This document shows positions 59,310 to 62,089 of a stretch of 64,000 nucleotides of DNA, in pieces; position 1 is the first letter of the stretch, and each line of letters starts with the position of its first letter. A program made the position numbers and the translations under genes. This DNA is from Anas platyrhynchos (lineage: Eukaryota > Chordata > Aves > Anseriformes > Anatidae). The stretch spans positions 5,493,501 through 5,557,500 of the forward strand of contig NC_092616.1 of NCBI RefSeq assembly GCF_047663525.1, read 5' to 3'. The notes under the pieces were generated by a model. The model had not been told where the DNA came from and made no database searches. It was given only the letters and a program-made list of their open reading frames with translations.

Positions 59310-60290
59310 TCTAATTTGCTTTGCCGTATGGCCCTTTCCAGGTTCCTGTAGCAGGATTCATCTGATAGCCTTTCAGGTTGATACAGATTTGACTACAGAT
59401 ACCAGGGTTTTGGCATTCATCACTATCTCCACAGTTTCCCAGATGGACAGTCATATTCATTTATGTTGCATTCCTTTAGGGTCTCATCACACCAGTCCTT
59501 GCAGTCTCTCTGCTGGTTACACACTTTATTGATATCTATGCATTCTCCACTTCTGCACTTGAATTTGCCAGGTCCAGAGCACTGAATAACATCGTTACAG
59601 TTTGCTTCATCAGTGCCATCCAGACAGTCTCTCACACCACTGCACTGCCTACTCCCATGGACACAGTTCCCATCTTCACATCTGAACTGGTCTGGCCTGC
59701 AGGTCCAAGAAGGGCAGTTAATTTCATCACTTCCATCCTTGCAATCAGGATCTCTGTCACATCGCCACTTCTTGTAGATACATTCACCTGAGCCGCACTG
59801 CACCTCACTCACAGAACACTTCACCGGAGGTGCAGGCTGGCAGCCACACTGCTCCAAAGATTCATCCGAGTGGTCAGAGCAGTCACCTTGACCACTGCAG
59901 ACAAAGCTTTTGGAAATACATTGTCCACTACTGCATGTGAACTCTGCTGCACTACAAGTCACATTGCCACAATTCTCTTCATCTTCTCCACTGTCACAGT
60001 CTCTTTCACCATCACATTTCCATGACGCTGTTCTCATATGACACAGCTCAGCACTTTCGTCAGACCCATCTTCACAATCCGGATCCCCATCACACTGCCA
60101 TCTGTTTGGCACACACTGACCACTGTTGCACACAAAGTCAGATTCAGCACACATCTTCTTCACACAAGCACTCTCATCACTGCCATCTGAGCAGTCTTCA
60201 CATTTTACTCTAGCACCGTTGGCAGCAGTGCACAGTCAGGCAAAGGCGATCAGCAGGCAGAGCGCCCCGCACCGTCACCTGTGTCACTTA
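59310..60290 (-). pseudogene. VLDLR: Intronless, deleted VLDL receptor ectodomain copy
   Basis: The minus strand encodes, without introns, a signal-peptide end (ALCLLIAFA, then a TGA at 60238-60236, then TAANGARVKCE). A chain of LDL-receptor class A modules follows: CAESDFVCNSGQCVPNRWQC, a shortened third module, CSAAEFTCSSGQCISKSFVC, CGSGECIYKKWRC, CEDGNCVHGSRQC and CRSGECIDINKVC. An EGF-like piece, DECQNPGICSQICINLKG, ends it. Order and sequence fit VLDLR, which has eight class A modules and binds reelin, lipoproteins and, in birds, yolk precursors. Modules 1, 3, 4/5 and the EGF region carry internal deletions that often join repeated motifs such as DCSD. The frame is open from 60235 to 59423 but lacks a proper start. 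The beta-propeller, anchor and tail are absent. Position between retroviral LTRs suggests capture of a spliced mRNA. Confidence 0.85.
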
Positions 60291-61657
60291 TACTACTCCT
60301 ATTACCCATGCTGTTAGTGTCAGTGGCATCCTTCTTGTACCGTTTCTGTCTTTGTCTCCCCCCTTTTCTTTTTGTCACTGGCCATTCACCACAAATGGAT
60401 AAGACACATGATTACTAGTTAGGAAAGAGAGTGTAACGTCTGCTATACGGCTGCAGGTAGTGCCAGCTGCAACCTTAGGTTTGTGAAAGAACCTGCCAGT
60501 GGTCATTTGGCAGTGTAATCTGCGTCTCTGCACTCCTGCCCTGCAATAGAGCTAAGTCGTCATTAGTAATAGTTATAACACTGATCTGGGGACTAATAGT
60601 CTTTTTTGCACTGCAAGATAAAACTTTTATAAAAAGAATGCTAGAGTGAAGCAGCACAGCCGCTGCTGCCGCTGCCTCCATGGTTATGTCAGACAGGCTG
60701 CAGGGTCCTGATGTCCGCCCCTCTGCTCTGTGCCAACTCACCACACGGTGAGGGTCAGCTACCGGTGTCCACTGACGCCTCTGGTCTCCCGTAGCAACTC
60801 AATCTCGGATGTCCCGCAATTACTTCAATTTCCCCGCGTTTTGCAGCTTCTGTCAGGTCTATTCTGTGTCTCTCAGAGCCGTCCGTGGCTCTGCAACGTC
60901 TCTCAGGGCTCTCTTCGTCCAGCGGTAGTCCCTCCGTAGTGTCTCGAGTCTCTCGGTGCCGTTCCGGTCTCTCAGCCTGTTCACGTCTCAGCGAGTCCAG
61001 GTCTCGGCCTGTGCGGGCCTCAGATGTTGCAGGAAGCATGTCATGTCATGCCCCTGCCTTTTTCTTGTCACAGTCAAAACATTTAAGAGCAAAAATAGGA
61101 TACACGAGATACACAAGATACACCGGGCCCATATATTAGGCCACACCACTCAAAACTTGGATAAAACAGCACTTCTTTTCAGTCTGTCAAGCACTTCGTT
61201 CGTCTCTGCCCACTCCCCTTGCGGAGAGTACGGAACAACGGATCGGAACTCTGCACTCGTTTTGCAGCAACGCTGCATCTCACTCACACAGCACCATCGC
61301 ACACGGAGGCCTCCAGCACATCTCATTCATACCACAGGAATATAATTTAGAATGATAACCAACCAAACAAGTATTGTCTCTGACTGTGTTCTTCGTGAAG
61401 TGACTTGTAACACTTTGTTTCAAACCCTTACATTTACACAAATACTTTCAACACAAAATACATACATAAAAACACATACAATTATTAACACTCCAGTTAG
61501 TATCCCTCCAGCAGCCGAAAACATACCGTTTGTCTGCAGTTTCAGGAGATCTCTGCCCCTGCGGTGAGCAGCTGAGAGTGGAGTCCCCTCCGAGCAAAAC
61601 GCTCAGTGTGCACCTAGGGGCGTCCACGCTGCAGCCGATCCCGCAGCCGAGCAGAGT
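60291..61657 (-). other. Unassigned sequence between LTR-B and the VLDLR copy
   Basis: In minus orientation this follows the tRNA-Arg primer-binding site and would be the leader and 5' internal part of the LTR-B element. A possible splice donor (CGGTATGT) is near 61530. One frame at 61039-60755 encodes a charged, Arg/Glu-rich sequence without known motifs, and another at about 60680-60478 begins with an Ala-rich hydrophobic stretch. A purine tract, AAAAAGAAAAGGGGGG, lies near 60355-60375. I cannot assign gag or any host gene. Confidence 0.4.
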
Positions 61658-61677
61658 GTCTCCTGCCTGGCTCACCA
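61658..61677 (-). other. Primer-binding site, tRNA-Arg type
   Basis: The minus strand reads TGGTGAGCCAGGCAGGAGAC, three bases from the LTR-B end. This matches the 3' end of tRNA-Arg (expected TGGCGAGCCAGCCAGGAGTC) with three differences. Confidence 0.6.
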
Positions 61678-61680
61678 AAA

Positions 61681-62089
61681 TGACTCACAGAAAGCTGACT
61701 CCACAGTCAGTAAGATTGTAAAGTAGGTATGTTTACTCAGTTCCGTGCAGCACGGGGCGGGTAGTCCCACCAAAGTCGTGCACGCCTAACGTGGTAAATT
61801 GCTTTAGTAAAAAGTTACATATACATGAACATTCCTATACATATGCATAACCTTTGTGAACAGTCCTCCTTATCTTAGACCCCTTGATTAAAGTCTGAAC
61901 CATGAGGTTTTTGATCTGGTTCTCGGGGTCCGAGAGGCTCCTGTTATCTGGTGGTATAAGTGCAGCACAGGCACAAATGTAGCACATATTCATTCTTAAT
62001 CAATTGTTCTCTAATTTCTAATTCCAATGTTTCAGCTTGCTCTTTTCTGGATCCACGGGTATTCTACTATTAATGTTCAAAGCCTGACA
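61681..62089 (-). mobile_element. 5' LTR of a second ERV (LTR-B)
   Basis: On the minus strand it runs from TGTCAGGCTTTGAAC to CTGTGAGTCA, 409 bases, directly followed by a tRNA-Arg-like primer-binding site. That makes it the 5' LTR of an element extending to lower coordinates. It does not resemble LTR-A, LTR-C or LTR-D. No clear AATAAA is visible; GAGTAAACATAC near 61725-61740 may play that role. The matching 3' LTR is not found in the window. Confidence 0.6.

Follow-up and report, generated by a model that had tools for sequence, protein, structure and literature searches.

Here we describe a host message carried by a virus in a 64,000-nucleotide stretch of the genome of the duck Anas platyrhynchos (NC_092616.1, positions 5,493,501 to 5,557,500; C30:5493501-5557500 in the genome that we searched), which we refer to as the window. 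Its minus strand holds a spliced segment of VLDLR set in retroviral sequence. The window very probably contains a truncated copy of a non-autonomous endogenous retrovirus (ERV) family that carries a captured VLDLR message, with a cassette from one virus (virus B) lying inside the unit of another (virus A) and with several independent insertions. Spliced VLDLR mRNA of this bird lineage was joined to virus B sequence at short homologies; the unit is bounded by a long terminal repeat (LTR) that we call LTR-A, a primer-binding site of the proline type (Pro-like) and a purine tract, and it has integrated at several independent sites, some of them recently. An original prediction, made from the letters of this locus, held that a defective retrovirus had captured VLDLR and integrated here. 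This central claim is upheld: the same joints recur genome-wide in independent insertions, the cargo lies inside paired LTR-A units, and exact 4-bp target duplications are found at three loci.

The VLDLR segment and its joints

The captured cDNA (59344..60279, minus strand) begins within the coding part of exon 1, ends within exon 9 and is 95.7% identical to the host gene, which we found through its beta-propeller in a searched genome of 1.26 Gb and 42 contigs. Exons 1-10 of the host gene lie on contig C35 between 29064818 and 29074958 (29.065-29.075 Mb), and their introns are GT-AG with the exception of a single GC donor. All eight exon joints from 1/2 to 8/9 are intronless in the window copy, as predicted for a minus-strand VLDLR. 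Within the cDNA, a 270-codon open frame contains six LDL-A stretches recognized by Pfam and matches human VLDLR (8ufb_V, 8.3e-129); LRP2 chains outrank VLDLR in the same PDB list (1.1e-185) because LRP2 has far more repeats, and the identity is settled by a 179-residue aligned stretch together with the host gene. The predicted run of LDL-A modules with part of an EGF module is therefore there in outline but not in detail—the six LDL-A stretches are present, but relative to the host gene LA1 and LA3 are cut, LA4 and LA5 are fused and both EGF modules are damaged.

The copy carries seven internal deletions of 20-117 bases; the blocks missing relative to the host coding sequence (CDS) measure 28, 66, 51, 117, 60, 20 and 27 bases, while extra small gaps near CDS position 1400 are viral sequence beyond the joint and not VLDLR deletions. 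All seven are shared by locus L009 and six of the seven by L014 and L015; among the 16 rows compared, from which L021 was left out, the 51-base LA3 block is retained in L014, L015, L016 and L020. Direct repeats of 9, 6, 2, 1, 7, 1 and 2 bases, as scored, are found at the deletion ends, and that of the 117-base deletion rises to 7 bases if its ends are moved by two bases. The repeats sum to 28, against a mean of 6.5 under random placement (P 5e-5, 20,000 draws), a pattern consistent with strand transfer during reverse transcription of a repeat-rich message; other slippage processes would leave a similar picture.

The joints can be compared with L045, a copy of virus B that lacks VLDLR. At the 5' joint L045 reads GGTGATGG and VLDLR exon 1 reads GGTGACGG, giving the homology GGTGA(C/T)GG; at the 3' joint a 10-base string, TGCTACAGGA, is common to L045 and VLDLR. 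Both joints are in phase. The last viral bases before VLDLR (60280..60309, minus strand) form ten codons from a viral ATG and lead in phase into exon 1, and at the other end a VLDLR codon passes into the viral frame behind it, where virus B sequence resumes (59326..59343, minus strand) with one base different from L045. Agreement of phase at both joints would arise by chance in one case out of nine, which is suggestive only.

A spliced cDNA could also have come from an ordinary retrocopy made by the long interspersed element (LINE) CR1, which fell into a provirus and was then carried along. CR1 may indeed be active in this bird, as the window holds an 836-codon open frame that is CR1-ORF2-like by eye (50074-52584, minus strand). 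We nevertheless consider this origin highly improbable: the copies read show neither poly(A) nor any of the mRNA's 3' part, and no target duplication around the cDNA, which instead ends inside exons, at short homologies between virus and VLDLR and in phase at both ends. The original prediction had invoked the rarity of retrocopies in birds, and this is in line with the lower retrocopy counts for lineages outside mammals given in the accessible part of PMC13320880. The locus itself contains no VLDLR-type gene with introns and no poly(A)-tailed retrocopy between unrelated viral sequences.

Read-through is the textbook route by which acute retroviruses capture host genes, and it could be proposed here too—a virus B provirus beside or inside VLDLR would have given a joint transcript that was later packaged. 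The LTR assigned to virus B (LTR-B) and its leader do lie upstream of the cargo. We judge this route unlikely, however, because the 5' joint falls within the coding part of exon 1 and not at a splice site, and the 3' joint within exon 9, and both resemble template switches.

A dispersed family built from two viruses

The original prediction proposed a search for further copies of the element, and a dispersed family emerged. At least 41 stretches of DNA, that of the window among them, match at 90-100% identity and lie on many contigs (40 of 413 candidates were scored). Joints were counted in this one genome with patterns allowing up to 3 mismatches, and the reversed-pattern control was 0 in each case. 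The viral site immediately 5' of VLDLR gave 391 matches, and the joint from VLDLR to the virus A integrase region that is typical of the window (59304..59325, minus strand) gave 115. The 3' joint from VLDLR to virus gave 278, which at 3 mismatches may take in window-type copies, with 2 mismatches at most among the rows listed; the end of virus A gag before LTR-B gave 229, a match that alone is no proof of an LTR-B neighbor. The VLDLR-free viral state was found 58 times. Contig C34 (16 Mb, 1.3% of the genome), which we presume may be the W chromosome, holds 38 of these 58 sites; the W chromosome is a store of ERVs in birds. On C3, at 27.42-27.48 Mb, five window-type joints lie about 15 kb apart in one orientation, an apparent tandem amplification.

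Sixteen loci were annotated (L009-L024). LTR-A, whole or cut, stands on both sides of a full cassette in 10 of them, and the order in between is Pro primer site, gag-like piece, LTR-B, leader, VLDLR, integrase, env-like piece and LTR-C-like fragment, with internal gaps or inserts in some of the ten (leader in L013, integrase in L016, VLDLR in L020). L018 and L019 have LTR-A at both sides but have lost everything from the 5' LTR piece to VLDLR, while L017, L021, L022 and L023 are truncated, interrupted or partly fetched. Complete units measure about 7.0 kb (6982 in L014, 6998 in L020); that of L014 is nearly filled by the named parts, and since these include no gag-pol set, nor a reverse transcriptase, the element cannot move by itself. 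The LTR-C-type piece comes from an unrelated LTR and is constant in the family (57495-57904 in the window), so the element holds sequence from at least four sources. In L017 the VLDLR-integrase piece adjoins a different direct repeat pair of 811 bp (99.4% alike) in place of LTR-A.

To judge by its sequence, virus A is gammaretrovirus-like: it has a Pro primer site, an integrase C terminus of the murine leukemia virus (MLV) type (2m9u, 2.5e-5) and a 4-bp duplication (exact in 3 of 9 loci). The Pro and tRNA-Arg primer 18-mers used as references are those that we take to be standard; by eye, the primer sites of L015, L016 and L020 equal the Pro 18-mer with zero differences. Virus B is represented by L045, which shares the upstream viral site and also has an integrase piece (rve_3 at 1.5e-4, below the cut-off) and a 349-codon frame that matches Avian_gp85 at 6.4e-14, above the cut-off, and the fusion transmembrane subunit of avian sarcoma-leukosis virus (ASLV; 4jpr) at 8.6e-18; weaker matches to filovirus GP2 are also found (1.4e-4 and worse). 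Virus B is a retrovirus with an avian-leukosis-type (ASLV) envelope. LTR-B and the Arg-like primer site appear to belong to it, an assignment by position only; an Arg-like site is at odds with the norm in alpharetroviruses, a Trp primer site. The cassette lying inside virus A consists of LTR-B, the leader and VLDLR, to which some copies add envelope.

A second class of copies retains part of this envelope. Six loci were picked by hand, non-randomly, from listed matches to the upstream site that lay outside the listed window-type joints. In five of them (L046, L048, L049, L050 and L051) VLDLR runs into virus and the back half of the envelope; the sixth is L045. Open codons cross the VLDLR-envelope joint in each: 304 in L046 (with L047), 261 in L048, 192 in L050, 158 in L051 and 127 in L049, the frames of L048 and L050 running to the end of the fetched stretch and those of L049 and L051 changing or stopping inside the envelope. 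All five have lost a larger number of LDL-A modules than the window copy has. Behind the envelope part, L046/L047 and L048/L052 continue into virus A integrase, and all five have the end of virus A gag some 1.73-1.75 kb upstream of the viral site that they share, so these loci too are hybrids of A and B. Copies of the window type look as if they had lost the envelope part. More tentatively, in the founder the VLDLR ectodomain may have taken the place of the front portion of an avian-leukosis-type envelope, with the frame kept at either end; particles or infected cells would then have displayed a host receptor of the LDL-A kind held by a viral membrane anchor, perhaps with a change in the cells or particles bound, in a gene that decayed before or during the spread. 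One subgroup of avian leukosis virus uses an LDL-A protein, Tva, as its receptor, and the pairing of an LDL-A receptor cargo with an envelope of this virus group is striking, though possibly accidental.

Movement as a retrovirus has left marks at individual loci. Target duplications were checked at nine loci with both ends visible and are exact, at 4 bp, in three: TGTG in L015, GAAG in L016 and AGTG in L020. A solo LTR-A within the window (1781-2669) has GCGG on both sides, and in each of four copies inspected a purine-rich tract immediately precedes the 3' LTR. Eight LTR pairs could be measured, those of L012 and L024 being too unequal in length to compare; divergence (K) is 0.0038-0.0076 in L009, L014, L015, L016 and L020, and 0.036-0.047 in L010, L011 and L013. 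With substitution rates near 2e-9 per site per year, these values translate into ages of about 1-2 and 9-12 million years. For the VLDLR segments, compared across 19 copies, K is 0.038-0.053 against the host gene and has a median of 0.028 between copies, which indicates that the capture preceded the greater part of the spread; at synonymous sites, divergence between the copies and the host gene is 0.06-0.12.

Duplication of DNA around one integrated copy might in principle account for the copy number with no retroviral movement at all. A similar 14-bp minisatellite array lies directly behind the 3' LTR in 7 of the 15 loci with a 3' flank read (L010-L013, L018, L019 and L024), and these proviruses seem to have been multiplied along with the array. 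One 5' flank is common to L011 and L013, another to L010, L018 and L019, and the window locus has a segmental duplicate, L023, at C30:3.55 Mb (98.7% identical). As the sole source of copies, such duplication is very unlikely and is already contradicted for the loci with their own flanks, duplications and LTR pairs: the other eight loci (L009, L014, L015, L016, L020, L022, L041 and L042) have no common 3' flank, the three exact 4-bp duplications are each different, and near-identical LTR pairs stand at separate loci.

The capture that we favor would have begun with VLDLR mRNA packaged into virus B particles and copied into virus B by template switching. Virus B might then have entered virus A by recombination or nested insertion, and later deletions among the LDL-A repeats, with loss of the envelope, would have produced the window type; copies would have moved only with enzymes from other viruses. 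Several observations weigh against this account. No VLDLR copy with LTR-B at both ends was seen among the copies examined, so that uptake of VLDLR by B ahead of any union with A is a step we infer. Exact duplication is lacking in 6 of the 9 loci; that of L014 is one base off, and L010, L011, L013, L018 and L019 have none, their 3' sides abutting minisatellite. The minisatellite group and the pair formed by the window copy and L023 were also multiplied by DNA duplication. Finally, the flanks of the window copy are unequal (GACA and CTGG), which means that this copy is rearranged; with its two LTR-A flanks mismatched, we rejected it as one intact insertion.

Coding capacity and anatomy of the window copy

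The original prediction reported about 270 open codons and raised the idea of a secreted decoy. The 270-codon frame does exist (59423..60235, minus strand), but its first in-frame ATG is codon 28, and among 23 distinct loci it is found in two, the window and its segmental duplicate L023; it is missing from the other 21, several of which are partial. The end of the signal peptide, also predicted, is present but holds a stop codon (Cys56 to TGA; 60236..60238, minus strand). This stop is identical in 16 of 16 copies compared, a set that left out L021 and L041 as interrupted and L018, L019 and L043 as short, and it is also readable in the five envelope-joined loci. Ahead of it, the 28-base deletion is found in all four copies compared with the host CDS for it.

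The ratio of nonsynonymous to synonymous change (dN/dS, or omega) against the host gene ranges from 0.20 to 0.54 across 19 copies, L021 and L041 again being excluded, and is 0.46 in the window copy. The latter value needs no selection, since a ratio near 0.5 is what one expects between a constrained gene and a copy free of constraint; at the low end (0.20-0.34), weak constraint in the past would be compatible with the values. With its open frame and a ratio of 0.46, the window copy might still be read as encoding a secreted VLDLR decoy, a role that we find barely credible: the frame starts late behind the signal-peptide stop, LA1 and LA3 are cut, cysteines have been gained and lost, and most loci lack the frame. 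Expression of a receptor today appears unlikely, and the VLDLR part is most likely an untranslated passenger now, while a fused protein in the founder virus is possible.

The window provirus lies throughout on the minus strand. It opens with its 5' LTR, LTR-A (62920..63769), which is 90% identical, with gaps, to the solo LTR-A at 1781-2669. There follow a tRNA-Pro-like primer-binding site of virus A (62899..62916, two differences from the Pro 18-mer) and a broken virus A leader and gag-like remnant with an ATG near 62392 (61989..62898; family loci mostly 95-97%), which has no significant Pfam hit and is read as gag by position. LTR-B, an internal LTR-like segment whose start is uncertain by several bases (61681..61975), is constant in the family; no second copy lies in the window. 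Next come the tRNA-Arg-like site of virus B (61660..61677, two differences from the tRNA-Arg 18-mer) and the virus B leader with reading-frame remnants (60310..61659; family loci mostly 93-95%), for which Pfam and PDB gave no assignment. An LTR with an Arg-like site had been predicted to bound VLDLR on its 5' side; the site stands, but the LTR ends about 1.4 kb upstream of VLDLR, inside the larger provirus bounded by LTR-A.

Beyond VLDLR, a solo LTR-C flanked by AATTG/AACTG (58706..59303) is a later insertion, as had been anticipated: L003 reads uninterrupted through the site. The virus A integrase C-terminal remnant (58220..58705) is matched by 2m9u, with Pfam MLVIN_C at 0.017, below the cut-off, and adjoins a transmembrane-like env remnant of virus A that was named by eye (57905..58219; in 15 of 16 family loci, mostly 96-97%). 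The predicted integrase is borne out, but the env-like pieces beside it have no Pfam match at E 1; and while these remnants are gammaretrovirus-like, they belong to virus A and not to the virus of LTR-B. The LTR-C-like fragment (57495..57904) occurs in 15 of the 16 family loci, though not always whole. Last, a remnant before the 3' LTR is followed by the final bases of the 3' LTR-A (57411..57494), the 3' end being truncated here; most of the 3' LTR is gone.

Elsewhere in the window, a long 14-bp minisatellite array (about 21-10755) is broken by the solo LTR-A. At its end starts an open pol frame of 1183 codons on the plus strand (10805-14356; protease, reverse transcriptase, RNase H and integrase in Pfam), overlapped by a 728-codon frame at the env position with no Pfam hit (14344-16530, plus strand); no adjacent LTR pair or gag frame was seen. 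We rejected these frames (10805-16530) as part of the same virus: their best match to the VLDLR-element region is a 36-residue integrase stretch (8.5e-4), the rest are at E 0.055 or weaker, and we take the frames to be those of another virus. An inverted duplication with genes that are olfactory-receptor-like by eye (31100-34159 and 52921-56350) has arms up to 96% alike, and scanning the window for tRNAs and Rfam families gave no hits.

Comparison with known systems

Acute avian retroviruses are defective viruses in which host cDNA replaces viral coding sequence, and the duck element resembles them in both respects. It differs in that its cargo is a receptor ectodomain and not a growth-signaling gene, and in being endogenous and decayed, with no evidence of disease. 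Knowledge of host-gene capture by retroviruses usually comes from a small number of tumor viruses or ERV groups; in this duck a single genome contains the host gene, the VLDLR-free virus, the VLDLR-envelope class, the reduced class and insertions that can be dated, which allows the likely steps of a capture to be set beside one another. No report of VLDLR capture by an ERV, or of a VLDLR retrocopy, was found in the titles and abstract openings of the open-licence literature, which leaves most subscription papers outside. IMG/VR (searched with VLDLR and two viral pieces) and GTDB (VLDLR) gave no relatives; as viral and prokaryote collections they are uninformative on birds.

As far as the accessible description in PMC5408686 goes, LTR-mediated retroposition proceeds by template switching at microsimilarities, with chicken among the species named (Tan et al. 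2016). The likeness lies in an mRNA joined to an LTR element at short similarities (PMC5408686); unlike the single retrocopies described there, the duck product is a dispersed family.

The closest precedent, going by the accessible part of PMC4299795, is the crocodilian ERVs: CrocERV31 captured nectin3 and CrocERV29 captured KIT-ligand, and the same source mentions the Src of Rous sarcoma virus (RSV) as a captured host gene. As in the duck, these are multicopy ERVs holding host mRNA, and CrocERV31 likewise has a cell-surface protein in place of the envelope (PMC4299795). The crocodilian reading frames are reported there as intact and under purifying selection, whereas the duck copies examined have a broken frame, and the shared stop and an omega range set by comparison with a constrained parent give no sign of such selection on the cargo frame; selection of this sort characterizes the crocodilian cases and need not accompany every capture. 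The kind of event is thus known; new, as far as the open-licence literature shows, are the in-frame join of receptor and envelope, the union of two viruses and the presence of the forms side by side. Unlike the crocodilian ERVs as described in that source, the duck element has its host part in frame with the remaining envelope and combines two unrelated viruses.

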